Below, piece by piece: positions 17,191 to 49,253 of a DNA stretch of 64,000 nt. The notes beneath the pieces are model-generated. The model saw nothing but the letters and a program-made list of their open reading frames with translations. It had not been told where the DNA came from and made no database searches. The position numbers were made by a program, and so were the translations under genes. The DNA is from Prescottella soli (GTDB lineage Bacteria; Actinomycetota; Actinomycetes; Mycobacteriales; Mycobacteriaceae), in contig NZ_CP157276.1 of the NCBI RefSeq assembly GCF_040024445.1, forward strand, positions 4,526,001 to 4,590,000, given 5' to 3'. Every line of letters begins with the position of its first letter. The stretch's first letter is position 1.

Positions 17191-17892
17191 TTGGGGACGC
17201 AGCGGCGCACGTGGGCGGGCACGGGCATCGAGCAACGTCGTGCCGCGCGCCGCGACGCGTTGCTGGCCGCGGGCGTGGACCTCCTCGGGGCCGAAGGGGG
17301 CGCGGCCGTCGGCGTCCGGGCCGTGTGCCGCGCGGCCGAGCTCACCGAGCGGTACTTCTACGAGAGTTTCACCGACCGTGACGAATTCGTGCGCGCGGTG
17401 TACGACGAGGTCGGCCGACGGGCCCACGAGGCCCTCGTGGCGGCGGTCGGGTCGGCGCGGTCGCCGCGTGACCGGGCGTCGGCCGCGGTGTCCGCGTTCG
17501 TGGAGTTGATGGTCGACGACCCCGCCCGCGGCCGAGTGCTGCTGTTGGCGCCGCTGGCCGAGCCGGCGTTGGGCGGGCAGGGGCTCGAGCTGGCCCCGGC
17601 GTTCGTGCTGCTGGTCCACGAGCAGCTGTCGGAGATCGCCGATCCGGCCGAGCGGCAGATGACCGCAGTCGGCCTGGTCGGCGCGCTGACGAGCCTGTTC
17701 ATCGGCTACCTCGACGGCACGATCGTCACCTCCCCAGCGAGCTTCGTCGCGCATTGTGTCGACCTGGTCGAGGGCGCCGCTCGACGGCAGGCCGACACGA
17801 TGCGCGCCGGTCGGCCGCCTCAGCCCAGCGATTCGAGCCAGGCGGCGGCCGCCAACAGCCTCGATTCCGACCCGGGCCGCCCCACGAGCTGA
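17191..17892 (+). CDS. TetR family transcriptional regulator
   Basis: 233 residues from a TTG at 17191, which follows a GGAGGG ribosome-binding site closely. The DNA-binding domain is clear: a first helix rich in Arg (EQRRAARRDALLAAGVDLL) and then VGVRAVCRAAELTERYFYESFTDRDEF, a standard TetR helix-turn-helix. The C-terminal ligand domain is hydrophobic with no recognised motif. It is divergent from the MpaB-like gene, with an inverted-repeat operator between, so autorepression and control of that gene are likely. Its last 73 nt overlap, antisense, the end of the iac-cluster amidase gene. Confidence 0.85.
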   Translation: MGTQRRTWAGTGIEQRRAARRDALLAAGVDLLGAEGGAAVGVRAVCRAAELTERYFYESFTDRDEFVRAVYDEVGRRAHEALVAAVGSARSPRDRASAAVSAFVELMVDDPARGRVLLLAPLAEPALGGQGLELAPAFVLLVHEQLSEIADPAERQMTAVGLVGALTSLFIGYLDGTIVTSPASFVAHCVDLVEGAARRQADTMRAGRPPQPSDSSQAAAANSLDSDPGRPTS

Positions 17893-19097
17893 AGCCCCAG
17901 GGGTAGTCCCCGCGGATCGCGTCGGCCGGGCACGGTCACCACCGGCAAGCCCAGTGCCTGCCACGGTCGGCTCAGCACCGGTGATCCGGTCGCGCTCAGC
18001 CCCGGGGGCGCGACCCCGAGGGCGGCCGGGCCGAGGATGAACTCGTCGTCCGTCCAATCCGACAGCAGCCGCGCACGTACGGCCGCGATGCCGTCGCGAG
18101 CGTCTCGGTACGCCGCGTCCGAGGTGTCGGCGCCGGCCCGCAGCAACTCGGCGAACGGCGTACTGACCCGATCCGGTACCGCGGCCTCCGCGGCCCGCTC
18201 GCGTGCGGCCTCGTAGGACATCACCGTGTGATGGAACTCGTTGAGGGCGACTGTGTCTCGGTCCAGTCCGGCGTCGTCGGGCGGGGCGCCGGCAGCCGCC
18301 GCGGTGGCTGCCGCGTCCGCGAGAGCCGCCGCCATGTCGGTCGAGACCTCCCCGAGCTCGGTACCGCGCCACACCCGTAGTCTGCGCGGGGCCGCCGGCG
18401 TCAGTGGGGGAGCCGTCACGCCGTCCCGCATTGCGGTCCAGAACAGGTACAGGTCGTCGACGGTCCGGGCGAGCAGCCCGACGGTGTCCAGGCTCGGGCT
18501 CAGCCCGGTGATCCCGCTCGTGTCGATGTCGCCGTGCGTCGTGACCAGCCCGGCGACGCCGCAGAACGACGCGGGTCGAGTCAGCGACCCCGCGGTCTGG
18601 GTGCCGAGGGCCGCCGGGATCGTGCCGGCAGCGACGGCCGCCGCCGACCCGCTCGACGACCCGCCCGGTGTGTGTCCCGGGGCGTGCGGGTTACGGGTGG
18701 GGCCCGGCTGGAAGTACCCGAACTCCGTGGTCACCGTCTTGCCGATCGGCACCGCGCCCGACAGCCGCAGCCGGGCGACACAGGACGCGTCCCCTGCCGC
18801 GGGCACGCTGTCGGTGAGGTCACTGCCACACCGGGTCGGCATGCCGGCGACGTCGATCAGGTCCTTGACCCCGACCGGAACGCCCCACAGCGGACCCCGG
18901 GGCGCGTCGGCCCCGAGGCGTGCCACGGACTGTCGGGCGAGGTCGGCGTCGACGTGCGCCCACGCGTGGAGGTCGGGCTCGTCCCTCGCGACTGCGTCGA
19001 GGGTGCCCTCGATGATCCGGGCCGGATTGGACTCGCCGGCGGCGAGGCGGCGGACCAGCACACGCAGCGGTCCCGGGGGTACGGCGTCGGGGATCAC
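17820..19097 (-). CDS. iacH: Amidase signature family protein (IacH-like)
   Basis: 425 residues from a GTG at 19097. The amidase signature is complete: catalytic Lys in PVGVKDLIDV, the GGSSSGSAAAVAAG loop with the cis-Ser, and the nucleophile Ser in the TQTAGSLTRPASFCG segment. In iac (indole-3-acetate catabolism) clusters an amidase, IacH, is a standing member though its exact step is debated. The GTG overlaps the stop of the symporter gene, so it ends a four-gene operon iacG-DUF485-symporter-iacH. An open frame reading back through the symporter region exists but is a frame shadow. General amidase activity on other aromatic or acyl amides is an alternative. Confidence 0.8.
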   Translation of the reverse strand: MIPDAVPPGPLRVLVRRLAAGESNPARIIEGTLDAVARDEPDLHAWAHVDADLARQSVARLGADAPRGPLWGVPVGVKDLIDVAGMPTRCGSDLTDSVPAAGDASCVARLRLSGAVPIGKTVTTEFGYFQPGPTRNPHAPGHTPGGSSSGSAAAVAAGTIPAALGTQTAGSLTRPASFCGVAGLVTTHGDIDTSGITGLSPSLDTVGLLARTVDDLYLFWTAMRDGVTAPPLTPAAPRRLRVWRGTELGEVSTDMAAALADAAATAAAAGAPPDDAGLDRDTVALNEFHHTVMSYEAARERAAEAAVPDRVSTPFAELLRAGADTSDAAYRDARDGIAAVRARLLSDWTDDEFILGPAALGVAPPGLSATGSPVLSRPWQALGLPVVTVPGRRDPRGLPLGLQLVGRPGSESRLLAAAAWLESLG

Positions 19098-20644
19098 GGA
19101 ACCGCCACCGTCTCGTCGTCGAAGAGCGGTTCGCCGCGGCCGGTCAGCGCGCGGGTCCGCATCGCGGTGAAGCGCCGGTCGGCGCGCTCGCGGGCGGCGC
19201 CCGCCGGTGTGCTCGCGAGTGCGACGAGGACCGACACCAGGAGCGAGACGGGGGCGACGGCGAGCGCGGGGTTCGAGAACCCGAGCGGGGCACCCGGGCC
19301 CTGCAACGCCGGGCTGAGCAGGATCACAGTGACGGACAGGACGAGGCCCGCGCCGATGCCGGCCACCACGGCGCGAGCGGTCATGCGCTTCCAGTACATC
19401 GTCAGCAGCAGGGCGGGCAGGTTGGCGCACGCGGCGATCGACATGCCGAGCGACGCGAGGAACGCGACGTTCTGCTTCTGCGCGGCGAGGGCGATCGCGA
19501 CACCGATCAGGCAGGTCGCGACGGTCGCGATACGGGCGGCTCGGTGCTGCGACTCGGCGGACCCGGAGCCGTTCCGGATCACCTGCCCGTACAGGTCGTG
19601 CGCGATGGCGCCGGAGGTGGCGATCACCAGCCCGGACAGCGCGGCGAGGATCGTCACGAACGCCACTGCTGCGACGAACGCCAGCAGCACGCCACCACCG
19701 ACCGTCTCCGCGAGCTGCGCGACCGCGAGGTTGCCGCCGGGGTTCCGGGACTTGATCACATCGATGCCGACGAGTTTTGCTGCGCCGTAACCGAGTACGG
19801 GAACGAGGAGGTAGAACGCGAAGAAGATCCAGATCGCCGTGTAGGCGGACGTCCGGGCCTGCTTCGCATCCGGCACGGTGAGGAACCGGATCATCACGTG
19901 CGGGAGGCCGAGCACGCCGAGGACGAGGCCGACGGTCTGCGACAGCTGGTCGAACGAGGCGGTCCCGGACGTGCGGTGTGGTGCGATGAACGACTGGCCA
20001 AACTCGGCCAGCGCGGTGCTGAACGGGCCGAAGGGATTGAAGTCGAAGCGGACGAGCACCAGCACGAACAGCACTACCGCACACACCATCAGGAGCCCGG
20101 TTTTGATGATCTGGATCCAACTGGTGGCGAGCATTCCGCCGACCAGGGTGTAGATGGTGGTCAGCCCGCCGATGATCAGGACGGCAACCGAGTACTTCAG
20201 GTCGAAGAGCAGCGAAACCAGAAGGGCCGCACCGACGAGCTGTGAGACGAGGTAGACGACGCTGATGACCACGGTGCTGACGGCCATCATCGACCGCACG
20301 TCCTTGCCCGGGAACCGGCTGGCGAGGACGTCGGCCAGCGTGAACCGCCCCAGGTTTCGCAGCGGTTCGGCGACCAGCAGCATTGCGAGGACGAACGCCA
20401 CGGGAACGAACACTGCAAGGTAGAAGCCGTTGAATCCGGTGAGAGCAATGGCGCCGGTGACGCCGAGGAAAGAGGCCGCGGAGATGAAGTCGCCGGCAAT
20501 CGCGACGCCGTTCTGGCGGCCCGTGAGGCTTCCTCCGGCGACGTAGTGGTCGGCCGCGGACTTGTTGCGTTTCGAGGCCCACGCGGTCACCACGAGGGTG
20601 ACGGCGACCAGTGCGGCGAACAGTACTGCGGATACGGGGTTCAC
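19094..20644 (-). CDS. Sodium/solute symporter (SSS family, ActP-like)
   Basis: 516 residues, GTG start at 20644, with about 13 hydrophobic segments. The N-terminal GGSLTGRQNGVAIAGDFISAASFLG is the conserved SSS sodium-binding region, also seen in acetate permease ActP. Later features are the LVGGMLATSWIQIIKTGLLM and ILAALSGLVIATSGAIAHDLY segments. The gene lies between a DUF485 gene and the amidase with 4-nt overlaps on both sides, within the auxin-degradation operon. Import of indole-3-acetate or another small aromatic carboxylate is the natural inference. The family's known substrates are acetate, other monocarboxylates, sugars and proline. Confidence 0.88.
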   Translation of the reverse strand: MNPVSAVLFAALVAVTLVVTAWASKRNKSAADHYVAGGSLTGRQNGVAIAGDFISAASFLGVTGAIALTGFNGFYLAVFVPVAFVLAMLLVAEPLRNLGRFTLADVLASRFPGKDVRSMMAVSTVVISVVYLVSQLVGAALLVSLLFDLKYSVAVLIIGGLTTIYTLVGGMLATSWIQIIKTGLLMVCAVVLFVLVLVRFDFNPFGPFSTALAEFGQSFIAPHRTSGTASFDQLSQTVGLVLGVLGLPHVMIRFLTVPDAKQARTSAYTAIWIFFAFYLLVPVLGYGAAKLVGIDVIKSRNPGGNLAVAQLAETVGGGVLLAFVAAVAFVTILAALSGLVIATSGAIAHDLYGQVIRNGSGSAESQHRAARIATVATCLIGVAIALAAQKQNVAFLASLGMSIAACANLPALLLTMYWKRMTARAVVAGIGAGLVLSVTVILLSPALQGPGAPLGFSNPALAVAPVSLLVSVLVALASTPAGAARERADRRFTAMRTRALTGRGEPLFDDETVAVP

Positions 20645-20946
20645 GACTGCTGGTCCTCTCGTGCGGGGGCGGCACCGAGTTCGAGTTCGGCGACCTTGCT
20701 CATGTAGTAGCGGGCGACGGCGATCGCGACGACGAACTGCGCGAAGGCGTAGGCCCATGCGACGGTGACGCCGCTGAAGAGCACGCCGTCGAGCAGTGAC
20801 GTGAATCCGCCGAGGATCGGGAGCGGGAAGAACGTGACGAGCACGAGAGCGCTCAGTCTGGTGATGAGGGCGGCGCGTCGATCGGCGAGCTCGGTGAGCA
20901 GCTCGGACTCGGGCCGGTCGATATTCGTGATGTCGGACATCGTCAT
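20641..20946 (-). CDS. DUF485 small membrane protein, symporter partner
   Basis: 101 residues with two transmembrane helices (about 30-50 and 58-80) and a short charged N-terminus. DUF485 proteins are almost always encoded directly upstream of acetate-type SSS symporters (yjcH-actP) and are presumed accessory subunits. The ATG at 20946 overlaps the flavin reductase stop (ATGA); a second ATG at 20940 is possible. Its own stop overlaps the symporter GTG. Confidence 0.85.
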   Translation of the reverse strand: MTMSDITNIDRPESELLTELADRRAALITRLSALVLVTFFPLPILGGFTSLLDGVLFSGVTVAWAYAFAQFVVAIAVARYYMSKVAELELGAAPAREDQQS

Positions 20947-21530
20947 TCACCCCCGACGGCGACCGGCGCCGGAGTGACGGTGATGGGGTCGGACCACTCG
21001 TCGTAGAACAGCCAGTCGGGTGACGCGACCGGCATCGACAGTCGATGGAAGGTGCGCTGGAAGTAGACGAGACTGTCGCCGTGCTCTCGTGTGCGGATCC
21101 GGTCCACCTCGACGAACATCACCGAATGCGAGCCCATCGTTCGGCTCTCGCGGATCCGGCCCACCAGTGCGACATGCGCGTTGCGCAGTACCGGAACCCC
21201 GGCGTCGTCGGCGCCATCCCAGATGTCCCAGTCGAATCGCTCCGCCATCGTTGTACCGGTGGCGCCTGCGAAGTGCATCGCCAGCTCCTCGTGGTCCCCG
21301 GCCAGGACGTTGACGGCGATGCGTCCGTTGGTTTGGAACACGTTGTGCATCGCACTGTTTCGGTTCACGCACACCAGTGCGGTGGGCGGAGAGTCCGTCA
21401 CCGAGCACACGGCGGTGACGGTCATACCGCAGCGGCCCGCCGGGCCGTCGGTGGTGATGACGTTGACCGCGGCGGGTAGGTTCGCCATCGCGGATCGGAA
21501 CTCGCGTTGTTCCGGGGTCAGGTCGGGCAC
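20943..21530 (-). CDS. iacG: Flavin reductase (IacG-like)
   Basis: Supplies reduced flavin to a two-component monooxygenase, here most likely IacA. 195 residues from a GTG at 21530, which has a well-placed GGAGG six bases upstream; an in-frame ATG at 21569 lacks such a site. Flavin reductase (HpaC/NtaB fold) motifs are visible: FRSAMANLPAAVNVITT, GMTVTAVCSVTDSPPTALVCVN, INVLA-type segment AVNVLAGDHEELAMHFAG, and a C-terminal YFQRTFHRL. First gene of the operon iacG-DUF485-symporter-iacH, divergent from the response regulator across 252 nt. Confidence 0.88.
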   Translation of the reverse strand: MPDLTPEQREFRSAMANLPAAVNVITTDGPAGRCGMTVTAVCSVTDSPPTALVCVNRNSAMHNVFQTNGRIAVNVLAGDHEELAMHFAGATGTTMAERFDWDIWDGADDAGVPVLRNAHVALVGRIRESRTMGSHSVMFVEVDRIRTREHGDSLVYFQRTFHRLSMPVASPDWLFYDEWSDPITVTPAPVAVGGE

Positions 21531-21782
21531 GGTCTGCCTCCAGGAGGTCGGCTGGATTGTCGGGTGCAAGAGATGGTGAAAGAGGTACGGAGAGCGGCCA
21601 CGGGGCGCGGCTCTTCCAAGATCAGGGTATGAGGTGCGTCACGTTCGGGGCAGTGGCGGCGACGCTAGTCTGCGGTAGCGATTGCCTGCGCGCGATAGGG
21701 GAATCCTTCAGTCCGCCAGTGGCGTTGGGCTACTCTCTGGGGGCGGGGGCAGTCGGGACCGTGACGATCGAGGCAGGATTCG

Positions 21783-22406
21783 ATGGATCAGCAGCAGGAA
21801 ACGTGCGTCTACATCGTCGACGACGATCGGGAACTCTGTCAGTCGCTGGCGTGGCTACTGGCCTCGGTCGACATCCGTTCGGAGTCCTTCTATTCGGTGT
21901 CGTCGTTCCTGGCCGGCCGGCGCACGGACATTCCGGCGTGCCTCGTCCTGGACGTCCGGATGCCCGAGGTCGGCGGATTCCAGTTGCAGGAGGCGCTGCT
22001 CGGGGAGGAGTCACCCATCCCGATCATCTTCGTGTCGGCGCACGGTGACATCAAGATGACGGTGCGGGCGCTGCAGAAGGGTGCGCTCACCTTCATCGAG
22101 AAGCCGTACGATCCGCAGCACATGCTGGACGTCGTGCAGGATGCGCTGCAGGTAGCGCGGCGACGGTTCGACGACCATCGCCGCCTCGACTCGCTGCGCG
22201 GTCGGATCGACGCCCTGACCGTCCGCGAACGGGAGATCCTCTCGTTGGTCCTGGACGGGCTGCCGAGCAAGAACATCGCGAAGGCGCTGGGGATCAGCGT
22301 CAAGACGGTGGACGTGCACCGCACCCGGATCAAGGAGAAGACCGGTGCCGAGAGCATCGCGGTGCTGGTCCGGGACGTCATGCAATCCGGGATCACGGTG
22401 GTCTGA
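21783..22406 (+). CDS. FixJ/StyR-type response regulator
   Basis: 207 residues: receiver domain 1-125 with acidic pair at 13-14, phospho-acceptor Asp57 in LVLDVRMP and Lys107 in FIEKPYD, then a LuxR/FixJ helix-turn-helix at about 140-200 (LTVREREILSLVLDGLPSKNIAKALGISVKTVDVHRTRI). This class (FixJ, StyR, TodT) activates aromatic-degradation operons together with a PAS-containing kinase. Such a kinase is encoded at 28295-29833, at the far end of the auxin operon on the same strand. It is divergent from iacG and convergent with iacF, so it sits between the two catabolic operons that it probably activates. Confidence 0.9.
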   Translation: MDQQQETCVYIVDDDRELCQSLAWLLASVDIRSESFYSVSSFLAGRRTDIPACLVLDVRMPEVGGFQLQEALLGEESPIPIIFVSAHGDIKMTVRALQKGALTFIEKPYDPQHMLDVVQDALQVARRRFDDHRRLDSLRGRIDALTVREREILSLVLDGLPSKNIAKALGISVKTVDVHRTRIKEKTGAESIAVLVRDVMQSGITVV

Positions 22407-22430
22407 CCGTCGACAGCGCTGTGGCGGTCA
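22404..22430. terminator. Possible bidirectional terminator
   Basis: Between the convergent response regulator and iacF, TGACCG (22404-22409) pairs with CGGTCA (22425-22430) around an inner 10-base palindrome at 22413-22422. The left arm includes the regulator's TGA stop. No U-tract is seen; the call rests on position and pairing only. Confidence 0.4.
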
Positions 22431-22433
22431 CGG

Positions 22434-23393
22434 TTACGGCAGCTCGACGATCAGGCGAGGCGAACGCGCCCTCGACACGCACGCGGCGATCCGGTCACCC
22501 GCCTTCTTCTCGCCGACGGTCAGGCAGTTGTCGCGATGATCGGGGGTGCCGCCGAGAACGTCCAGCACGCACGTGCCGCAGATGCCCTCGCGGCACGACG
22601 TATCGATCTCGATGTCGTTGGCCTCGAGGACCTCTGCGATCGAGGCGCCGACGGGAATCTCGAACACCTCACCGGTGTCGAGTTCGAGCTCGAACGGGAC
22701 GTCGGCGTCGGTGTCGACGGGGGCGGCGGCCTCGAAGTGTTCGACGTGGACGTGGTCCTCGCCCACCGCGGGTTCGGCGAGGGTCCGCACCCGGGCCATG
22801 AAGTCCTCCGGCCCACAGGTGTAGACGTGGCTCGCGCCGGTCAGGTCGGACAGCGCCCGTTCGAGGATCTGGTACTGGTCGGCACGGGTGACGCCGAGGT
22901 GCAGGTGTACCCGACCGGCGAACTCCGACTCCTCGAGCAGGTCGACGAACGCGGCCTGCTCCCGGGACCTCGCGAAGTAGTGCAGGTCGAACGGCTGCCG
23001 CTGTGCGTGGAGCGCGAAAGCGAGGCTCAGCATCGGGGTGAGCCCGATCCCGGCGCCGACGAGGACGTGGTGGTCGGCGCCGGGGACGACGGACATCAGG
23101 TTCCGCGGCGGACTGATCCGGAGTTCGGTCCCGACGCCCACCCGATCGTGCAGCGCGGCGGACGCGCCCCGCGCACCGTTCTCGCGTTTGACCGCGACCA
23201 GGTACGAGTCTGTGCGGTGGGGCGGGCTGCACAGCGAGTACTGGGTCACCACCTCGGTGGGCCCCATTACGTCGATGTGCGCGCCGGCCGAGTAGGGCTC
23301 GAGCGGTCCACCGTCCGACCGGACCAGCCGGAACGACTTGATGTCCCGGGCCTCGTCGACGATCTCCGAGACTGTGACAGTGAACATCTTCAT
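22434..23393 (-). CDS. iacF: Oxygenase ferredoxin-NAD(P)H reductase (IacF-like)
   Basis: Class IA (phthalate dioxygenase reductase-like) electron-transfer protein of 319 residues. The FMN/FAD domain has the QYSLCSPP flavin motif (about 51-58), the nucleotide domain has GAGIGLTPMLSLA (113-125) and YTCGPEDFM (191-199), and a plant-type [2Fe-2S] domain closes the protein with Cys267, 272, 275 and 305. It would pass electrons from NAD(P)H to the Rieske dioxygenase IacCD encoded upstream in the same operon. Last gene of the operon iacABICDEF; the stop is 27 nt from the convergent regulator stop. Confidence 0.92.
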   Translation of the reverse strand: MKMFTVTVSEIVDEARDIKSFRLVRSDGGPLEPYSAGAHIDVMGPTEVVTQYSLCSPPHRTDSYLVAVKRENGARGASAALHDRVGVGTELRISPPRNLMSVVPGADHHVLVGAGIGLTPMLSLAFALHAQRQPFDLHYFARSREQAAFVDLLEESEFAGRVHLHLGVTRADQYQILERALSDLTGASHVYTCGPEDFMARVRTLAEPAVGEDHVHVEHFEAAAPVDTDADVPFELELDTGEVFEIPVGASIAEVLEANDIEIDTSCREGICGTCVLDVLGGTPDHRDNCLTVGEKKAGDRIAACVSRARSPRLIVELP

Positions 23394-23450
23394 GGTCCTT
23401 CATTCCTCCCTACCACGACCCAACCGTTCGACACCGGAACAGGTTGAGGG

Positions 23451-24191
23451 TCAACGCATGTACAGTCCGCCGTTGACGTCCCAGCAGGCGCCGGTGACCG
23501 ACATCGCGGTGGGCGAGGCCAGCAGCGCGACGGTCTCGGCGATGAACTCCGGGGAACCGAGTGTCCCGACCGGAATGGTCGTCACGATGCGGCCCAACTG
23601 CTCGGCTGGTACGGTCTCCCGCACCACCGGGAGGTCCAGCGGCCCGGGCGAGACGGCATTGACCGTCACACCCGCGCCCGCGAGTTCGCGGGCGAAGACC
23701 TTGGTGAGCGTGGCGACGCCGCCCTTCGCGGCCGCGTAGTGCGCGCCGGTGGCGGTGCCTCCGTTCTGGCCGGCGAGGGAGGCGATGTTGACGATCCTGC
23801 CGTACCCCCGATCCGCGAGGTACGCGCCGAAGACCTGACAGCCCAAAAACGTTCCGTTGAGGTTGGTCTCGACGATGTCGGAGAACTCCTCGGCGGAGAT
23901 CGACATCAGCTGTCCGGTCTGTGAGCGCCCGGCGTTGTTGACGAGGACGTCGACCCGCCCCCAGCGCTCGACCACCCGGTCGCGCAGCGCCGTGAAGTCG
24001 GCCTTGCTCCGGATGTCCAGGGCGGCGCCGAAGGCCCGCTCGCCAGTGGGATCCAGTTCGGTCGCGACGGTGTGCGCCGCACTGCCGTCGAGGTCGGCGA
24101 GTGCGACGCGGTAGCCGCGACGGTACAGGTGACGTGCGATGGTGGCGCCGAGCCCGCGCCCGGAGCCCGTGACCACTGCGACGGTGTCCAC
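23451..24191 (-). CDS. iacE: Short-chain dehydrogenase (IacE-like)
   Basis: Classical SDR of 246 residues with TGSGRGLG cofactor motif, NNAGRSQTG, catalytic Ser in NIASLAGQNGG, and HYAAAKGG with the Tyr-Lys pair; the C-terminus GACWDVNGGLYMR is typical of the FabG-like subgroup. In iac clusters the SDR IacE follows the initial oxygenation of indole-3-acetate, in the route from 2-hydroxy- or dioxindole-3-acetate towards catechol. The gene lies between the dioxygenase small subunit and the reductase on the minus strand, with gaps of about 57 nt on each side. Confidence 0.88.
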   Translation of the reverse strand: MDTVAVVTGSGRGLGATIARHLYRRGYRVALADLDGSAAHTVATELDPTGERAFGAALDIRSKADFTALRDRVVERWGRVDVLVNNAGRSQTGQLMSISAEEFSDIVETNLNGTFLGCQVFGAYLADRGYGRIVNIASLAGQNGGTATGAHYAAAKGGVATLTKVFARELAGAGVTVNAVSPGPLDLPVVRETVPAEQLGRIVTTIPVGTLGSPEFIAETVALLASPTAMSVTGACWDVNGGLYMR

Positions 24192-24249
24192 GTGGTTGGT
24201 CCTTTCGGTGGCGGATCTGTCGCGAGCGACGATCCGGTGGTCGATGCGG

Positions 24250-24753
24250 CTAGAGCAGGTACCCGGAGGCGTTGACGGCGCTTTCGGAGTTCACGAGACG
24301 AATCACCTTCAGCTCCAGCCGAGGTCCGTCCGCGGTCGATCGGATGCGGTGGGTGAGCTCGGCTGCGAGCGTCTGCTGGGTATCGCGCCGGAAGCCGACG
24401 AGAATCTGCGCCGACCGCAGGGTGACGGTGTCTTCGGTTCGGTCCTCGACGGTGAATCGGGAGACTGTGCGGACGGTCCGCGCGGCGGCCAGGGCCGACA
24501 TCGAGTAACCGGATGTGAGTCGCTCGATACGCATCCGACGCATCCGGCTGTCGTCGTTGACCATGTTGAGGTGCGCGTCGAAGTCCTCGATCGCGGGGTC
24601 GATCGGGATGACGTAGCGACCGTCCTCCGTCCACAGGGCGTCCCACGCCCGGTAGTCCTTCGCGTCGAGGAGTGCCGCTTCGTGCCAGATCAGTTCGATG
24701 GCCTCGAGCACCCGGCCGTCGATCGACCGGCCGGTCACCAGATCAGCGAGCAT
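24250..24753 (-). CDS. iacD: Aromatic-ring dioxygenase small subunit (IacD-like)
   Basis: 167 residues with the cone-shaped NTF2-like fold pattern of Rieske dioxygenase beta subunits: an N-terminal LIWHEAALLDAKDYRAWDALWTEDGRYVIPID helix-strand unit and MRRMRIERLTSGYSMS in the middle. It is structural and pairs with the catalytic large subunit. The ATG overlaps the end of the large-subunit gene by 11 nt, supporting coupled 1:1 translation. Confidence 0.9.
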   Translation of the reverse strand: MLADLVTGRSIDGRVLEAIELIWHEAALLDAKDYRAWDALWTEDGRYVIPIDPAIEDFDAHLNMVNDDSRMRRMRIERLTSGYSMSALAAARTVRTVSRFTVEDRTEDTVTLRSAQILVGFRRDTQQTLAAELTHRIRSTADGPRLELKVIRLVNSESAVNASGYLL

Positions 24754-26029
24754 CGTTCATCATCTTCTTCCACATCGCATACGCTTCGCGCATTCCGGTT
24801 TCGTCGGTGACATGCGAGGTGCGGTGCCCATCGCTGTCGAGGCTCTCGCGGTTCAGCCCTCGGTTGACCATGATCGGCATGTCGGGGGCGCCGTTGGCGC
24901 CGCGCTGCACGCGATCCCACGCCTCGGCGTCGTCGGGGCTGCCGAATCCGAAGGGGCCCTGGAAGTGTTCGTGAATCCGCAGGCGCTCGCGGTTGACGAT
25001 CTCCGGTCCACCGTCCAGCCCCAGCGCGACATGCCGAATCTCCGTCTCGTCGACCGATATCGGCTGAAGCACCCGGAAGAAGGACATGGACATGGCCACG
25101 TTCGGGAAGATGTTCAGGTTGAATCCGGCGCCGTGCATCGAGCGGACGATGCGCCGGACCTTCTCGGGCGGCATCGTCTTCGACAGTTCGGCGACGACGT
25201 GGTCGAACCGCCCCTGCAGCTCTTCGGTGCCGTCGTCGTAGTCGAGATCGACGTGCTCGGGCACCATGATCGCGACACTGTGGCCGTTGCCGAGCGCGTG
25301 GGTGACGGCCTGGTCGTCGGTCATGAACGAGAGCATGTCGGCGGTCTCGGCGTCGACGGACGACATCCACGACCGGTGGACGATCGGGAAGTGGTAGCCG
25401 TCGGTCGTGTTCTCCAACTGGATCTTCCAGTTGCCTCGGAACCGGAATCGGTGCTCGCCCTGCGTCTTGATCGGGTACCCGGCGCCCTGCTTCATGAACA
25501 GGTCGATCCAGGGCTTGGCATCACCGAGGTAGTCCTCGAGCGGCTCGATGTCGGGATCGAAGCTCGCGAAGATCATCCCGGCGTAGGACTCGACGCGGAG
25601 GCGCTGCAGCGGCAGGTCCTTCTTGTCGAGGTCGGCGTCGTAACCGTCGGGGTACGGGATGCCGCGCAGTCGGCCGTCGAGCGCGTAGGACCAGCTGTGG
25701 TACGGGCAGGTGAAACCGTTGGCCTTGCCCTTGGGGACCTCGCACACGCTGGCGCCGCGGTGCCGGCAACGGTTGAGCAGAACATTGAAGTTGCCCTTGC
25801 GATCCCGGTTCACGATCACCGGCTGTCGGCCGATGGTCGCCGTCTTGAAGCTGCCCGCTTCGGGGATTTCGCTCTCGTGGGCGACCCAGACCCACGTGCG
25901 GTGAAAGATGCGTTCGAGCTCGAGCTCGAACACCTCTGGATCGGTGTACAGCGAGCCCGCGACGCGGTCGTCCGAGACGAGGTCGGCTGCGGCGGGGGCG
26001 GGTCGGTCGGGTTCGAGGAAGGTGGTCAT
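24743..26029 (-). CDS. iacC: Rieske dioxygenase large subunit (IacC-like)
   Basis: 428 residues. The Rieske [2Fe-2S] ligands are Cys88-x-His90 and Cys108-x2-His111; the mononuclear iron ligands are His213 and His218 in the DGYHFPIVH motif, with Asp210 as the electron-bridging residue. This is the catalytic subunit of the iac cluster dioxygenase acting on an oxidised indole-3-acetate intermediate. Length and both metal sites are complete. Iac membership rests on the neighbouring IacA, IacB and IacI-like genes; alone it could be assigned only to the ring-hydroxylating dioxygenases. Confidence 0.9.
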   Translation of the reverse strand: MTTFLEPDRPAPAAADLVSDDRVAGSLYTDPEVFELELERIFHRTWVWVAHESEIPEAGSFKTATIGRQPVIVNRDRKGNFNVLLNRCRHRGASVCEVPKGKANGFTCPYHSWSYALDGRLRGIPYPDGYDADLDKKDLPLQRLRVESYAGMIFASFDPDIEPLEDYLGDAKPWIDLFMKQGAGYPIKTQGEHRFRFRGNWKIQLENTTDGYHFPIVHRSWMSSVDAETADMLSFMTDDQAVTHALGNGHSVAIMVPEHVDLDYDDGTEELQGRFDHVVAELSKTMPPEKVRRIVRSMHGAGFNLNIFPNVAMSMSFFRVLQPISVDETEIRHVALGLDGGPEIVNRERLRIHEHFQGPFGFGSPDDAEAWDRVQRGANGAPDMPIMVNRGLNRESLDSDGHRTSHVTDETGMREAYAMWKKMMNDAR

Positions 26030-26071
26030 GTGGTTGTCCTTCGAAGTGGGCTGGTGGCGTGCATCCGCTGC

Positions 26072-26533
26072 TCAGCGCGCGGGAAGGGGCACGGCGAAGA
26101 GTCGCTCGGTGCCGAATCGTCGGATCAGCGCCGTTCCGTCGGTCAGGTCGACCTCGGCGTCGATGCGGGCAGCGATCAACTCGCTGGTCCCGTCCCGGTA
26201 GGTCGAGAGCTGTTGCATGATCCAGCGGCCGCGGGCCGCCGCTCCGTCGGTGTCGACGTCGATCTGTTCGTTGCCGAGCAGGTGCACGTTGCGGCGGAAG
26301 TGATCGTTCGGCGGCAGGTGGGAGGCGACCATCTCGATCACCGCGTCACGGCCGGACCGGCGACCGAACCTGGCGGCGTACTCGGCGCCGACACCCTCCC
26401 ACACCGCATCCTCGGTGAAGAGGGCGGTGAGAGCGTCGACGGAGAAGTCGACGGACGGCACGTCGCATAGTTCCATGTAGCGGCACATGAGGTCGTGGAC
26501 GGCGTCGCGCGCGCCGGAGGCAGGCCGGCTCAC
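26072..26533 (-). CDS. iacI: SnoaL/NTF2-like protein (IacI-like)
   Basis: 153 residues from a GTG at 26533 that overlaps the stop of the iacB-like gene. The sequence has the NTF2-like pattern (DLMCRYMELCDVPSVDFSVDALTALFTEDAVWEG, then ARGRWIMQQLSTYRDG). IacI proteins in other auxin clusters are of this size and fold, and have been proposed to help the first steps of the pathway, possibly as an isomerase or hydratase. It is separate from the dioxygenase beta subunit, which has a similar fold. Exact function unknown. Confidence 0.75.
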   Translation of the reverse strand: MSRPASGARDAVHDLMCRYMELCDVPSVDFSVDALTALFTEDAVWEGVGAEYAARFGRRSGRDAVIEMVASHLPPNDHFRRNVHLLGNEQIDVDTDGAAARGRWIMQQLSTYRDGTSELIAARIDAEVDLTDGTALIRRFGTERLFAVPLPAR

Positions 26534-26895
26534 GCGTCGTCGCGGACGGTCAGCGCGCGCCCGATCCGGGCCTCGATCTTGGCGTAGCGCCACAGGGAGT
26601 GCTCGCCGACGGGGGTGGTGCGGAACAGATTGCAGACGTCCTTGACGGTCTCCTGGGTGTCGACGTCGGCGAGGATGTAGCACGTCCACGGCCAGCCGTC
26701 CGACGGACCGACCATGTGGCTGTCGTCGTCGATGTCGCCGAGCACCCGAACCCCGGGGGTGGCCGCGAGCGCGTCCATCATCCCGGAGAAGGCCTGCCAC
26801 ACGACTCCGCCCCCGCCGGTGGGAAGGTCGAAGAAGTTCTGATTGATTCCGATGCAGAACAGCACCCGTAGCGGTGCGGACGAGGAAGCGGTCAC
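26530..26895 (-). CDS. iacB: IacB-like small protein of unknown function
   Basis: 121 residues. No enzymatic motif is recognised. The middle (LFCIGINQNFFDLPTGGGGVVWQAFSGMMDAL) and the C-terminal DVDTQETVKDVCNLFR are compatible with a dimeric alpha-beta barrel protein. Proteins of this size with no known function follow iacA in other indole-3-acetate clusters (IacB). It is placed between iacA and iacI on the same strand with 37-nt and -4-nt spacing. Assignment is by context and length. Confidence 0.65.
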   Translation of the reverse strand: MTASSSAPLRVLFCIGINQNFFDLPTGGGGVVWQAFSGMMDALAATPGVRVLGDIDDDSHMVGPSDGWPWTCYILADVDTQETVKDVCNLFRTTPVGEHSLWRYAKIEARIGRALTVRDDA

Positions 26896-26932
26896 GAGGG
26901 GCTCCTGGGAAGGTCGTCGATGGGGAAGGGGC

Positions 26933-28087
26933 TCAGATGAATCCGGGGAACGGCGGGATGTCCATCAGCACCGCGCCGGCACTGTCGTAGATGCCGTCGC
27001 CGAGGAACGCGTGCTGCGGCGGGACGAGGGCTTCGCGCATGTAGCGCTGCATCGGCGTGCCGTCGTAGATCGCGCCGGTGCCCGACAGCTGGAACGCGGT
27101 ATGGACTGCGGCGGCACCGGCTTTCGCGACGTGTGTCGAGGACAAGCGCAGCAGCGCGGCCAGCTTGTCGGGGACCGGATCTCCGGCGACGACGGTCGCG
27201 TAGGCCTCGTCGGTGACCTCGTAGAAGAACGCTCGGGCCGAGCGCAACGCTGCCTCCGCCTTGGCGATGTCGATGCGGTAGTAGGCCCGGTCGGCGAGGC
27301 GAGGCGCCCCGGTGATGCCGGTGCGCCCGGCCCCCACCTTCACCGCGTGATCGAGCGCGGCCCGGCCGACACCGAGGTTGACGACGGCGAGAACCTGAGC
27401 GGCATATGCGATCGACGGGTAGCGGTAGAGCGGTTCGTCGACGGTCGGAGTGCCGCCGCGCACGAACGTCCAGTCCTCGGGGACGACGACGCCGTCCACC
27501 TTCAATTCGTGGCTGCCGGTCCCCGACAGCCCGAGGACGTCCCAGTTCTCGACGATCTCGACGTCCTTGGGCCACAGCAAGGCGGTGAGGGGCTTGCCTG
27601 CGGTGTCCTCGCCACCCCGGATACCGACGCCGAGGATGTCGGCGCCCTTGCAGCCGCTGGCGAACTTCCACTGGCCGCTGACCTCGTATCCACCCGGCAC
27701 CTTCCGAGCCGGCTGTACCGGGAACAGGCCGCCCGCGAAGACCAGGTCCGGACTGTCCTTGTACAGCTCGGCCTGCGTGTCGAGGGGGAGCGCGGCCAGG
27801 TACACGAGCGCCGAGCCGAAGCTGGCGACCCAACCCGCGGATGCGTCCACGGCGGAGATACGCTCGATCATCCGCAGGAACTCGCTGGGCGGCAGGGCAT
27901 CTCCGCCGAACCGTCGGGGCGTGGCCGCGCGGTAGATGCCGACCTGTTTGAACTCCTCGATCATGTCCCGCGGCACGTACTTCAGTTCGGCGAACTCCTG
28001 CCGGCGCGCGGCCACGTGGTCGAGGACGGTCTCGAACGACAGGTTCGCGGCCGTCTCCGGCGGTTCGAGGACAGGGGTCTTGGTCAT
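26933..28087 (-). CDS. iacA: Acyl-CoA dehydrogenase-fold flavin monooxygenase (IacA-like)
   Basis: 384 residues of the acyl-CoA dehydrogenase fold in the subgroup used by two-component flavin monooxygenases (HpaB/DszC-like): VPRDMIEEFKQVGIYRAATPRRFGG, SAGWVASFGSALV and GGYEVSGQWKFASGCKGAD are characteristic. The catalytic Glu of true dehydrogenases is absent from the C-terminus, which ends in PQHAFLGDGIYDSAGAVLMD. In known iac clusters IacA, with reduced flavin from IacG, carries out the first oxygenation of indole-3-acetic acid (to 2-hydroxy-IAA). First gene of the seven-gene minus-strand operon and divergent from the sensor kinase across 207 nt. Confidence 0.88.
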   Translation of the reverse strand: MTKTPVLEPPETAANLSFETVLDHVAARRQEFAELKYVPRDMIEEFKQVGIYRAATPRRFGGDALPPSEFLRMIERISAVDASAGWVASFGSALVYLAALPLDTQAELYKDSPDLVFAGGLFPVQPARKVPGGYEVSGQWKFASGCKGADILGVGIRGGEDTAGKPLTALLWPKDVEIVENWDVLGLSGTGSHELKVDGVVVPEDWTFVRGGTPTVDEPLYRYPSIAYAAQVLAVVNLGVGRAALDHAVKVGAGRTGITGAPRLADRAYYRIDIAKAEAALRSARAFFYEVTDEAYATVVAGDPVPDKLAALLRLSSTHVAKAGAAAVHTAFQLSGTGAIYDGTPMQRYMREALVPPQHAFLGDGIYDSAGAVLMDIPPFPGFI

Positions 28088-28294
28088 CTCTGATACTCCG
28101 ATCGGTACACGGGTGCGCCGAATGACGCGACGGAAGGCGCTGGGGGAACAGGTTCATTTCCCATTGGGGACAAGCTAATTCGAGTGACCCACGTCTCTCA
28201 ATCGGTGCATTCCTGGTAGCCCTGCGTCAGATGTCGTGTTCGGCTGAAGGTTTTCCCTATGCGTTGTCGACCAATCGCTTCGTAGTATCGGCGG

Positions 28295-29833
28295 ATGCCC
28301 GATCAGAGTGGTGCGTACGAGCTGACATCCGCCGACTACGAGCGGCTGGTCGGGTCGCTGCGCTATTGCGTGCTGGTGCACGACGCCGTCACGAAGGACA
28401 TTCTGTGGGCCAATCGTGCCGCGTCCGAGCTCCTCGAATTCACCGTCGAGGAATTGCGTCCGCTCAAGGCGCCGGACATGAGCGTGCGGGCTGACTGCTA
28501 CCGCCGCTCGGCGGGCCGGCAATGGTTGCAGGACGCGGTGGACAACGGCGTCGCCGTGATCGAGTGGGGCTACCGCAGCAAGAGCGGGCGCGAGATCCTC
28601 ACCGAGGCCATCGCGATTCGGGTCGAACTGACGGGCCGCACCGTGGTGATGGTGCAGTTCCGGGACATCGAGCAGGAAGCGATGATGCGCCGTGAACTCA
28701 CACGCACCGAGGCGGATCTCAACCGGACCGAGGCCCGGCTCGCGGCGTTCCTGCGGAACATGGCAGAGGGCATCCTCGTGCTCGACGACGACAGCCGGAT
28801 CAGTTACGCGAGCGAGGCCGCGGCAAAGCTGCTCGACGTGCCGGTCGAGCTACTGATCGGGGTGCGGTTCACCCGGTTCTGTCGCGGCGGCAGCTCACGG
28901 GAGCGGGTGGAACGCAGCCTCGCGCGTGCCAGCGCGGACGGGGAATCGCAGGGGTTGCGCTACGAGGTCGAACTCGCCTCGGGCGAGCGTCGCTGGCACT
29001 CCGGGAGCTGCCAGCACATCTCCATCGAGAACGACCTCAGCGGGCATCTGCTGTTGTTCCACGACGTCACCGAACACGTGCGGACCGAGGAGGAGCATCG
29101 GCGGGACGCGCAGTACCTCAACTATCTCGCGCGCTACAACGCGATGGGCGACATGGCGATGGCCATTGCACACGAGCTGGCCCAGCCGCTCGCCGCCGCA
29201 ACCAATTTCATAGCCGGAACCCAGGGGCGGCTGGCACTCGGAGATCCCGGACTCGGCGACGTCACGTGGGGTCTGCAGGAGGCGCGCAAGCAGTTGGACC
29301 GGGCGAACCAGATTGTGCGCAGCCTGCGCGAGTACGTGACCCAGCTCGAGGAGTCGCTGCAGGTGGTGGACCTGAACGAGATCGTCGAGGAGTGTGCCGA
29401 CTTCGTCGACATCCGGGCCCGCCAGAAGGGCGTGTGCGTCGAGTACGTCTGTTCCGCGGAGCCGGTCGCGGTGGAGTGCGAGCGGGTCCTGACAGGACAG
29501 GTCCTGCTCAACCTCTGCTTCAACGCGATCGACGAGATGTCCGCGCAGTCGGGGGAGGGCGGCACGGTCCGTGTCCGGACGACGGCGAGCGGCGCCGAGG
29601 GGGTCGTCAGCGTCGAGGACGAGGGGAAGGGGCTGTCGCACATCCCCGACGGACGGGTCTTCGACGGGGCGTTCAGTTCGAAGGCCACCGGCCACGGGAT
29701 CGGACTCGCGTTGAGTCACCGGATCATCAGCCGTCAGGGCGGATCGCTGACGGCCACCGAGCGTGAACCGCAGGGCGCCGTCTTCACCTTCACGCTGCCG
29801 CGCGTAACCGCACCGGATCGTCCTCGCACGTAA
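28295..29833 (+). CDS. PAS-domain sensor histidine kinase, FixL-like
   Basis: 512 residues with no transmembrane segment, so a cytosolic sensor. Two PAS-type regions lie at about 15-125 and 150-265, joined by a charged coiled stretch (EQEAMMRRELTRTEADLNRTEARLA). The H-box of the HELAQPL type (FixL/HPK4) has its phospho-acceptor His at about 293. The N, G1 and G2 boxes follow, with VSVEDEGKGL and GHGIGLALSHRI. Its partner is most likely the FixJ-like regulator at 21783, encoded on the same strand at the other end of the iac operon. A soluble kinase suits sensing of the aromatic acid or an intermediate inside the cell. Confidence 0.9.
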   Translation: MPDQSGAYELTSADYERLVGSLRYCVLVHDAVTKDILWANRAASELLEFTVEELRPLKAPDMSVRADCYRRSAGRQWLQDAVDNGVAVIEWGYRSKSGREILTEAIAIRVELTGRTVVMVQFRDIEQEAMMRRELTRTEADLNRTEARLAAFLRNMAEGILVLDDDSRISYASEAAAKLLDVPVELLIGVRFTRFCRGGSSRERVERSLARASADGESQGLRYEVELASGERRWHSGSCQHISIENDLSGHLLLFHDVTEHVRTEEEHRRDAQYLNYLARYNAMGDMAMAIAHELAQPLAAATNFIAGTQGRLALGDPGLGDVTWGLQEARKQLDRANQIVRSLREYVTQLEESLQVVDLNEIVEECADFVDIRARQKGVCVEYVCSAEPVAVECERVLTGQVLLNLCFNAIDEMSAQSGEGGTVRVRTTASGAEGVVSVEDEGKGLSHIPDGRVFDGAFSSKATGHGIGLALSHRIISRQGGSLTATEREPQGAVFTFTLPRVTAPDRPRT

Positions 29834-29853: not shown

Positions 29854-30213
29854 GTGGGTGCTCGCTCCTATCGTGAGGGAAAGTTCGTCGATCGTTGCGA
29901 GGTGCCGTCCGTGGACTATTCGAATCATCACCGCACGTTCCTGACCTGTTACGCCGACACGCACCGCTACGGGTGGCACCACGTCGACCTCTTCGTCCAC
30001 GACGAGTACGGCAACGAGGTCAACTGGGTGCACTGGCAGGTGCGTGAGGACGGCCCGGACGGCGCCGACGCGGCGACCGCGCGGGTGGAGCCGGACCTGC
30101 GACGGACCACCGAGTGGACGCGCGGGATCAGCGCGGACGGCAGCGAGTACTGGATCGCCGAGGCGGAATGGGCCGTCGGGGACGCGCCCACCGGGAGCGG
30201 TCCTCAGCGCTGA
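29854..30213 (+). CDS. Small protein of unknown function
   Basis: About 119 residues if it begins at the GTG at 29854; GTG codons at 29902 and 29911 are alternatives, and none has a convincing ribosome-binding site. The sequence is acidic and Trp/His-rich (HRYGWHHVDLFVHDEYGNEVNWVHWQV) and soluble. It follows the kinase gene by 20 nt and overlaps the nei2 gene tail-to-tail by 10 nt. Not recognised as a known family. Confidence 0.5.
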   Translation: MGARSYREGKFVDRCEVPSVDYSNHHRTFLTCYADTHRYGWHHVDLFVHDEYGNEVNWVHWQVREDGPDGADAATARVEPDLRRTTEWTRGISADGSEYWIAEAEWAVGDAPTGSGPQR

Positions 30214-47723: not shown

Positions 47724-49253
47724 TCAGCCGAACTCCACCCCCTGCGCGAGGGGGAGTTCGTCCGAGTAGTTCACCGTGTTGGTGGCGCGGCGCATGTACG
47801 CCTTCCAGGCGTCCGAGCCGGATTCGCGTCCGCCGCCGGTCTCCTTCTCGCCGCCGAACGCGCCGCCGATCTCGGCGCCGGACGTGCCGATGTTGACGTT
47901 CGCGATGCCGCAGTCGGAGCCGTCGGCGGCCAGGAACCTCTCTGCCTCGCGCTGATCGGTCGTGAAGATCGCCGACGACAGCCCCTGTGGGACGCCGTTG
48001 TGCAGCGCGATCGCCTCGTCGAGCGTGTCGTACGCGAGCACGTAGAGGATCGGCGCGAACGTCTCGGCCCGCACGATCGTCGTCTGCGCCGGCATCCGCA
48101 CGACCGCGGGTGTCACGTAGAACGACGCGCCCGACCCGACCCGTTTGCCGCCGGTCACGACGACACCGCCGTCGCCGCGCGCGGTGTCCAGGGCGGCGTG
48201 CATGGCGTGGTACGCGGCCCCGGAGATCAGCGGTCCCACCAGGACGCCGTCGTCGAACGGGTTGCCCACCGCCAGCTGCCGGTACGCGTCGGCGATCCGG
48301 TTCGTCACGTCGTCGACGATCGAGCGGTGGACGATGAGGCGCCGCAACGTCGTGCAGCGCTGACCGGCCGTGCCCGCGGCCGCGAAGACGACGGCGCGCA
48401 CGGTGAGATCCAGGTCCGCCGACGGCGTCACCACCGCCCCGTTGTTGCCGCCGAGTTCCAGCAGGCACCGGCCGAAGCGGGCCGCGACCCGCGGCGCCAC
48501 CGCCCGGCCCATCCGCACCGATCCGGTGGCGCTCACGAGCGCGATCCGCGGATCGTCCACGAGCTGCTCGCCGACGACCGAGGTCCCGAGCACCACGTGG
48601 TGCAGGCCGTCCGGTGCATCGTGCTCGGCGGCGGCCCGGCGCAGCAGGGCGTCGCACGCGAGCGCGGTGAGCGGCGTGGTCTCCGACGGCTTCCACACCA
48701 CCGGGTCCCCGCACACCAGCGCGAGCGCGGTGTTCCACGACCACACCGCCACCGGGAAGTTGAACGCCGAGATCACCGCCACCACCCCGAGCGGATGCCA
48801 CGTCTCCGACAGCCGGTGCCCGGGCCGCTCCGATGCCATCGTGCGGCCGTACAACTGCCGCGACAGGCCGACCGCGAACTCGCAGACGTCGATCATCTCC
48901 TGCACCTCGCCGAGGGCCTCGGAGCGGATCTTGCCGGCCTCGAGCGTCACCAGGTCGGCCAGATCCGACTTGTGTTCGGCGAGCAGTTCCCCGAGCCGGC
49001 GAACCACCGCACCACGCCGGGGCGCGGGCACCGTGCGCCAGACCTCGAACGCGGCGTCCGCGCGTCCGATCGCCGCGTCGATGTCGGCGGACGTACTGGG
49101 GTGCAGGAACGCCAGCACGGAGCCGTCGATCGGGGTCCGCGCCGTCAGCGGGACCGGGCCGGCGTCACCGGCGATCTCGGGAAGTGTTGCGCCGCAACGG
49201 CTGAGTGCCGCGATCGCGCGATCCGCCGTCGCGCCGGTGCCGGGATGCGTCAT
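47724..49253 (-). CDS. pcd: Aminoadipate-semialdehyde/piperideine-6-carboxylate dehydrogenase
   Basis: NAD(P)-dependent oxidation of 2-aminoadipate 6-semialdehyde (piperideine-6-carboxylate) to 2-aminoadipate. 509 residues; the ATG at 49253 overlaps the DUF1338 gene's stop. ALDH7-type features are visible: SAFNFPVAVWSWNTALALVCGDPVVWKPSE, the catalytic Glu in LELGGNNGAVV, the catalytic Cys in AGQRCTTLRR, and the ALDH7 end GSDAWKAYMRRATNTVNYS. It is the partner of lat at 50569 and the ortholog position of Rv3293 (pcd). Confidence 0.92.
   Translation of the reverse strand: MTHPGTGATADRAIAALSRCGATLPEIAGDAGPVPLTARTPIDGSVLAFLHPSTSADIDAAIGRADAAFEVWRTVPAPRRGAVVRRLGELLAEHKSDLADLVTLEAGKIRSEALGEVQEMIDVCEFAVGLSRQLYGRTMASERPGHRLSETWHPLGVVAVISAFNFPVAVWSWNTALALVCGDPVVWKPSETTPLTALACDALLRRAAAEHDAPDGLHHVVLGTSVVGEQLVDDPRIALVSATGSVRMGRAVAPRVAARFGRCLLELGGNNGAVVTPSADLDLTVRAVVFAAAGTAGQRCTTLRRLIVHRSIVDDVTNRIADAYRQLAVGNPFDDGVLVGPLISGAAYHAMHAALDTARGDGGVVVTGGKRVGSGASFYVTPAVVRMPAQTTIVRAETFAPILYVLAYDTLDEAIALHNGVPQGLSSAIFTTDQREAERFLAADGSDCGIANVNIGTSGAEIGGAFGGEKETGGGRESGSDAWKAYMRRATNTVNYSDELPLAQGVEFG

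Follow-up and report, generated by a model that had tools for sequence, protein, structure and literature searches.

The gene cluster described here lies in a 64,000-nucleotide stretch of Prescottella soli DNA (contig NZ_CP157276.1, positions 4,526,001 to 4,590,000), which is called the window and is numbered from its first letter. Judged from its sequence, a 12-kb acquired gene island in this window looks able to break down the auxin indole-3-acetate (IAA). The genes were called by using a codon-based caller, lists of open reading frames (ORFs) and translations, and the families were assigned by Pfam and NCBIfam scans. All nine iac genes were found in the island by gene calls, Pfam and tblastn, and the initial annotation of an iac cluster in an actinobacterium was confirmed by these and by matching iac loci.

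The genes iacA-B-I-C-D-E-F were tightly packed on the minus strand from 28087 down to 22434, as had been annotated. A second minus-strand operon (21530 to 17820) consisted of iacG, a DUF485 gene, an SSS symporter gene and iacH; the initial annotation had recognized its iacG and iacH and overlooked the two genes between them. The response regulator gene was located on the plus strand between the two operons, the kinase gene was divergent from iacA, and a small gene (29911-30213) followed downstream of the kinase gene. Since the kinase, the response regulator and the small gene belong to the cluster, the unit runs to about 30209, past 29833. Hence, the core of the span proposed earlier (17820 to 29833) was retained and its end was extended, and the membership given then as complete was found to lack the PAS kinase, the FixJ-like regulator and the ~95-amino-acid (aa) protein. 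A near-palindromic element, TAGGGRAWWCCTTYA, termed the iac box, was present in both divergent intergenic regions. The features are collected in the Table.

Table. Features of the iac island, in window coordinates
Feature	Position	Strand	Basis
iacA, flavin monooxygenase, acyl-CoA dehydrogenase fold, 384 aa	26933..28087	-	Pfam PF08028; 89% to R. opacus and R. tibetensis; tree
iacB, 121 aa	26530..26895 (26530-26865 with the short start)	-	Matches in 28 plasmid records; AlphaFold2 model
iacI, SnoaL/NTF2-like	26072..26488 (start perhaps a few codons upstream)	-	PF13577; position, identity
iacC, Rieske oxygenase alpha subunit	24743..26029	-	Motifs; about 89% to genomes of genus g23
iacD, Rieske oxygenase beta subunit	24250..24753	-	PF00866
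iacE, short-chain dehydrogenase	23451..24191	-	TGxxxGxG, YxxxK
iacF, ferredoxin reductase of Rieske oxygenase	22434..23393	-	PF00111; 2Fe-2S cysteines
Response regulator, receiver and LuxR-type helix-turn-helix (FixJ-like)	21783..22406	+	PF00072, PF00196; conserved in kinase/regulator-type iac loci
iacG, flavin reductase	20943..21530	-	PF01613; HpaC model
DUF485 small membrane protein	20641..20946	-	PF04341
SSS-family symporter, proposed IAA uptake	19094..20644	-	PF00474
iacH, amidase-signature enzyme	17820..19061	-	PF01425; K66 and GGSSSG
PAS-PAS sensor histidine kinase (IacS-like)	28295..29833	+	PF02518 and PAS families
Conserved ~95-aa protein	29911..30213	+	So far actinobacteria only; model pLDDT (predicted local distance difference test) 84.9
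iac box (candidate operator), kinase-iacA intergenic region	28245..28259	-	
iac box (candidate operator), intergenic region of response regulator and iacG	21696..21710	+	
Inserted segment	17783..30209	.	Homology to iac-less relative ends at 17782, resumes at 30210

Identity of the cluster and comparison with known loci

The Rieske oxygenase genes iacC/iacD, the reductase gene iacF and the dehydrogenase gene iacE were present together with the iac marker genes iacA, iacB and iacI, and the flavin reductase gene iacG and the amidase gene iacH were linked to them. Both a Rieske motif, starting from C88, and D-G-Y-H-x4-H were found in IacC, and the expected motifs were intact in IacC, IacE, IacF and IacH. 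With all frames open, the motifs intact and the boxes conserved (see below), a decayed or silent island was considered highly improbable, and nothing was found in favour of it.

No Pfam or NCBIfam match was obtained for IacB. Matches to IacB, at 41-67% identity, were present in 28 of 72,556 plasmid records and carried the annotation 'IacB protein' in four, and the AlphaFold2 model of IacB (pLDDT 88.4), for which fold matches were obtained, showed a beta-alpha-beta-beta-alpha-beta, ferredoxin-like arrangement. IacI was 42% identical to the NTF2-like gene product at the same place in an Acinetobacter cluster and 62-66% identical to its counterparts in the R. opacus group. IacG reached 210.8 bits with the HpaC model TIGR02296, above the cut-off of 205.95; by its context, it was assigned as the partner of IacA and not to 4-hydroxyphenylacetate catabolism.

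A tblastn search with IacA matched 379 of the same 72,556 plasmid records, 40 of which were listed and eight opened. The whole set, searched by tblastn, was found together at 28-79% identity in six of the eight opened loci (a Streptomyces, a Cupriavidus, a Burkholderia, two Rhodococcus and an Acinetobacter), which argues that the co-occurrence of these genes is not due to chance. The other two contained iacA only (L004) or iacA and iacG only (L008). A scan of 84,980 named genomes for IacA relatives retained the best 80 of at least 556 stretches, a selection that leans to close relatives; the closest among them belonged to R. opacus, R. tibetensis and a Rhodococcus metagenome-assembled genome (89%), followed by Arthrobacter (71-74%) and by Streptomyces, Pseudomonas and Burkholderia (61-69%).

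In a tree of IacA from 46 chosen rows, two clans were resolved. The smaller one (9 rows) comprised MarR-type and other clusters of Acinetobacter, Klebsiella, Novosphingobium, Azospirillum, Gemmobacter and Delftia; the larger one (37 rows) comprised the 34 rows linked to a kinase or regulator, plus three without such a link (L004, L008 and L010). The actinobacterial rows formed one clade (99/97) inside the larger clan, and the IacA of the window adjoined the R. opacus group (100/99) there, among the kinase/regulator-type clusters. The possibility, raised in the initial annotation, that the IacA, IacB and IacI homologs fall outside the Iac clades was not borne out by the tree, by the plasmid matches of IacB, or by the identity and position of IacI.

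Two other assignments were rejected. Indole (iif) oxygenase clusters contain an IacA-like oxygenase and a flavin reductase without a Rieske oxygenase, whereas the island possesses iacC/iacD; the L008 locus, with its A and G only, provides the contrast. An iac cluster controlled by MarR (IacR) was ruled out because the genes called and scanned between 17191 and 30983 included no MarR gene; the TetR gene at the edge of the island belongs to the ancestral surroundings. On its sequence, the cluster belongs to the two-component type of iac clusters, which is a known kind.

Auxin-degrading loci have been reported in five phyla including Actinobacteria, with iacA, iacB and iacI as the iac markers (PMC9613470), and predicted iac clusters have been reported in Nocardiaceae (PMC12462448). 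Rhodococcus and Arthrobacter have been cited as IAA degraders (PMC7481731), and a plant-pathogenic Rhodococcus strain has been described to grow on IAA without iac homologues (PMC7002392). In our sample, IacC at E<=1e-150 was found in 49 of 401 genomes of the family, representing 10 of 31 genera. The earlier stress on novelty was therefore not upheld: iac in Actinobacteria is already published. Further work would be worthwhile on the box, on the link with the symporter and on the small gene.

The whole layout, both in gene order and in relative strands, was identical in R. opacus ATCC 51881 and R. tibetensis FXJ9.536 (L063, L064), which also carried the kinase, regulator, symporter and small genes and both boxes. 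Their IacA and IacC were about 89-91% identical to those of the island, whereas IacI and IacH reached only 62-66%. The cluster occupied a different genomic place there, with no common flanking genes in the fetched stretches. Altogether, the layout was identical in five genomes of genus g23 and three Rhodococcus loci, where L045 and L064 apparently represent one genome. The core order A-B-I-C-D-E-F was also that of an Acinetobacter plasmid (L009, H-A-B-I-C-D-E-F-G). Hence, the earlier claim of a gene order unlike that of Pseudomonas and Burkholderia was correct for P. putida 1290 (iacABCDEFG-R-HI, PMC6624763) and for the Burkholderia loci compared, but the order as such was not unprecedented.

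The same catabolic set with the same type of flanking pair, a putative two-component system of IacS and LuxR, has been reported in iac operons of Paraburkholderia phytofirmans PsJN and Pseudomonas isolates (PMC11630574), and the same type of box was present in the Pseudomonas and Burkholderia loci examined. The proteobacterial loci examined, in which the gene order varied, had neither the small gene nor an SSS symporter above 60% identity, whereas the island has both. The MarR-type clusters (Acinetobacter, Klebsiella and, from the literature, P. putida 1290) had the catabolic genes in common with the island but carried a MarR gene where the island has the kinase and the regulator, and belonged to the other IacA clan; no box above threshold was detected in the MarR-type loci L009, L172, L175 and L176. 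The iad loci of Variovorax and Achromobacter also contain a Rieske oxygenase and related IAA enzymes, but they are separated from iac by iacA, iacB and iacI (PMC9613470), all three of which are in the island.

A cluster that is iac by sequence might still have another indole acid (indole-3-propionate, indole-3-butyrate or similar) as its main substrate and IAA as a side substrate. This would fit with IacA and IacE of C. glathei, which convert many indole derivatives (PMC7225977), and with the transporter of the island, an SSS symporter and not a member of MFS like IacT1 (PMC6624763). However, the full IacC/D/F/I set was present in a layout known from other iac loci, and an iac operon of the same regulatory type has been reported to be induced by IAA in one Pseudomonas isolate (PMC11630574). 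Such a substrate was thus judged rather unlikely, and IAA is preferred.

Regulatory genes and the candidate operator

A sensor kinase and a LuxR-type regulator were linked to iacA, as in the two-component (IacS/LuxR) iac type. Because no hydrophobic segment was found in the kinase (the highest 19-residue Kyte−Doolittle mean was 1.18), this PAS kinase is probably cytosolic. Kinases of 35-79% identity were encoded near iacA in other loci. A FixL/FixJ system proper was rejected, as the response regulator scored 174.8 bits against the FixJ equivalog cut-off of 255. The predicted model of the ~95-aa protein gave no clear fold match, and matches to the protein were so far obtained in actinobacteria only.

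When the sequences upstream of iacA and of iacG were aligned, using the window together with eight loci of the Rhodococcus group, one conserved element was found in both regions in opposite orientation. Measured from its centre, the box on the iacA side was 165 bp away from iacA and 43 bp from the kinase; for the other box, the distances were 173 bp to iacG and 80 bp to the regulator start. When one mismatch was allowed, TAGGGRAWWCCTTYA occurred only twice in the 5.48-Mb genome; these two sites were exact and lay in the island, and the reversed control gave none. Among nine g23 genomes, 30 sites were found at the same stringency. All 13 exact ones were at iac, and of the 17 one-mismatch sites five were at iac and 12 elsewhere (reversed control, 6); each genome had two sites at iac when exact and one-mismatch sites were combined. 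Five iac-less relatives of the genus contained no site at up to one mismatch.

To test the box on held-out loci, a set of 116 was divided into 98 with and 18 without a kinase or regulator in the fetched locus. The pattern had been built from nine of the 98, which left 89 as held-out loci. A match was counted at up to two mismatches within 300 bp upstream of iacA, the kinase, iacG or the regulator. The box was detected in 63 of the 89 held-out loci, from both Actinobacteria and Proteobacteria (14 of 20 genus labels), and in 20 loci (6 genus labels) at up to one mismatch. When the columns of the pattern were permuted 1000 times, an average of 0.59 loci and at most 18 were matched, and none of the permutations reached 63. 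Only one of the 18 loci without the pair had the box, namely L073, from a Streptomyces strain whose other iac locus (L078) is accompanied by the kinase/regulator pair. The difference between the groups gave a Fisher p of 2.4e-7, which serves only as a guide, given the relatedness of the loci and the different IacA clans of the two groups. The 46 collected sites had a mean dyad symmetry of 5.70 pairs, compared with 4.33 (s.d. 0.14) in shuffles. A weight matrix trained on the same loci placed 81 of the 98 above its 99% null threshold.

Several observations weigh against the box as a specific operator. The two sites in the P. soli genome are not independent evidence, because the window and its Rhodococcus relatives were the source of the pattern. 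In the window alone, the same two sites were found at up to three mismatches, when shuffles averaged 1.2 and 35 of 100 gave two or more. Among the test loci, only 7 of 20 from Streptomyces and none of three from genus g9 were matched; several of the Streptomyces misses contained a near-perfect palindrome of related sequence, with 8 or 9 of 10 pairs. A looser consensus gave 30 matches in eight other genomes against 23 in the reversed control, and its only two exact matches were at iac. The contrast between loci with and without the pair is also partly phylogenetic, as the groups differ in the IacA clan, and the plasmid USK13, scored as lacking the pair from its fetched locus, carries a regulator gene at a distance of about 35 kb. 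Overall, the positional signal of the box is strong, and its genome-wide specificity outside the Rhodococcus group is weak.

We proposed that the box is the operator of the FixJ-like regulator. It could instead be the site of another factor, or a promoter element that accompanies this iac clan. The confounding of box presence with the IacA clan would agree with that, as would the 17 of 98 kinase or regulator loci below the matrix threshold. However, the dyad symmetry fits a dimer of the LuxR/FixJ type, the box accompanies units in varied arrangements such as a separate symporter unit, and the sole locus having the box without the pair came from a strain that has the pair elsewhere. A role other than the operator was accordingly regarded as unlikely, though less so than a different substrate, and the operator of the regulator is the reading retained. 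No operator for the two-component pair is described in the excerpts of the iac literature compared.

Modules, origin and the proposed pathway

An SSS symporter above 60% identity was found in 19 of the 116 loci. In nine of them the DUF485-SSS pair stood behind iacG and never had a box of its own (0/9). In the ten where it stood apart, seven had a box above threshold upstream of DUF485, and the other three units scored 8.5-11.4 against a threshold of 14.8. This ties the symporter to the iac genes irrespective of how the units are arranged.

Genes were taken as one run when they shared a strand with gaps under 700 bp. IacA and IacB were in one run in all 108 loci having both, as were IacC and IacD in 100 of 100, while the cluster was split in 30 loci. 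Ten loci had A-B-E without IacC in the fetched stretch. Eight of these genomes were searched whole for IacC at E<=1e-100, and it was absent from five and present in three, although some assemblies may be incomplete. The constant linkage of IacA and IacB, together with A-B-E lacking IacC in some genomes, argues that IacB acts with IacA and IacE and that a stand-alone upper module exists. A kinase, mostly with the regulator too, was seen beside iacA-B-E(-G) in the genomes of L074, L077, L091, L130 and L070, where a close IacC was not found; these are candidates for a stand-alone auxin-converting module.

Other arrangements were observed on plasmids. In that of Rhodococcus YL-1 (L007:4127-12124), genes of a flavin reductase, an amidohydrolase, an aldehyde dehydrogenase and a GMC oxidoreductase lie between iacC/D and iacA, and perhaps feed IAA precursors into the pathway. 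In that of Streptomyces sp. NBC_00564 (L003:13998-23377), the iac genes, catA, a muconolactone isomerase gene and an enolase-fold gene form one run.

The island sits between a TetR gene and nei. The nei region was fetched from 11 iac-less relatives, and two further relatives gave no nei match. In nine of the 11, nei directly adjoined TetR, with no more than about 30 bp between them, and TetR was not recognisable in the other two (L168, L169). The closest relative has 10 bp at the site where the window has 12.4 kb. IacA at E<=1e-60 was found in one of 14 genomes of the genus, that of the window. The G+C content was 0.679 in the island and 0.703 and 0.696 in the flanks, and no transposase or integrase was present among the genes called in the island. 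Taken together, the island reads as a gain in this lineage. An ancestral cluster lost in the other species would agree with the related clusters in the 10 of 31 sampled genera of the family, but the single occurrence in the genus and the direct TetR-nei junctions in nine of the 11 relatives make such a loss very unlikely, and a gain is preferred.

The TetR gene at the left edge continues past the homology break, over the 3' end of iacH (17783-17892), and its C-terminus is unlike that of the TetR of the relatives. Further away, an aldehyde dehydrogenase gene adjoins a 2-oxoadipate dioxygenase/decarboxylase (HGLS) gene at 47724-50452, which suggests 2-oxoadipate catabolism, and a stand-alone condensation-domain protein is encoded at 57664-59046.

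The lower cat pathway was outside the window, as had been stated in the initial annotation, and the genome does contain the genes for catechol ring cleavage. Genes catA (502.9 bits, cut-off 404.4) and catB (551.8 bits, cut-off 334.95) and a 93-aa catC-like ORF beside them, read by eye, form one run near 1.314 Mb (L158:7320-11851, about 1.313-1.318 Mb). An AraC-type regulator gene near this run resembles the anthranilate dioxygenase regulator AndR, below the cut-off.

The following pathway is proposed, with the catabolic steps and the uptake assigned by homology. IAA would be imported by the SSS symporter and converted to 2-oxo-IAA by IacA with the reductase IacG; IacE would then form dioxindole-3-acetate (DOAA), and IacB would be tied to this upper half. 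IacC/IacD with the reductase IacF, together with IacI and perhaps IacH, would convert DOAA to catechol, which the chromosomal CatA, CatB and CatC-like protein would take onward. In the literature, the conversion of DOAA to catechol and the function of IacB are left open (PMC7225977), and views on the first two steps differ (PMC7225977, PMC9613470). The soluble PAS kinase would sense IAA or an intermediate and phosphorylate the FixJ-like regulator, which would bind TAGGGRAWWCCTTYA in the two divergent intergenic regions and switch on all four predicted transcription units. A horizontally acquired, self-contained IAA catabolic island, with the kinase and regulator switching its units via the box, was held to be probable.

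A broader proposal, for which the arguments appear evenly poised, is a portable auxin regulon of Actinobacteria and Proteobacteria. A cytosolic PAS kinase and a FixJ-like regulator would act on one iac box that marks the kinase/regulator-type iac units including the SSS auxin importer, the ~95-aa protein would be an actinobacterial addition, and the A-B-E(-G) half would travel separately without the Rieske oxygenase. The linkage of IacA and IacB and the bare A-B-E modules would place IacB with the first two steps, and the five of eight searched genomes without a close IacC may naturally lack the conversion of DOAA to catechol. If the box is the operator of the regulator, it would provide a sequence handle for predicting the auxin regulon in many genomes, name an importer and a new small component, and make the induction of the kinase/regulator-type clusters testable.

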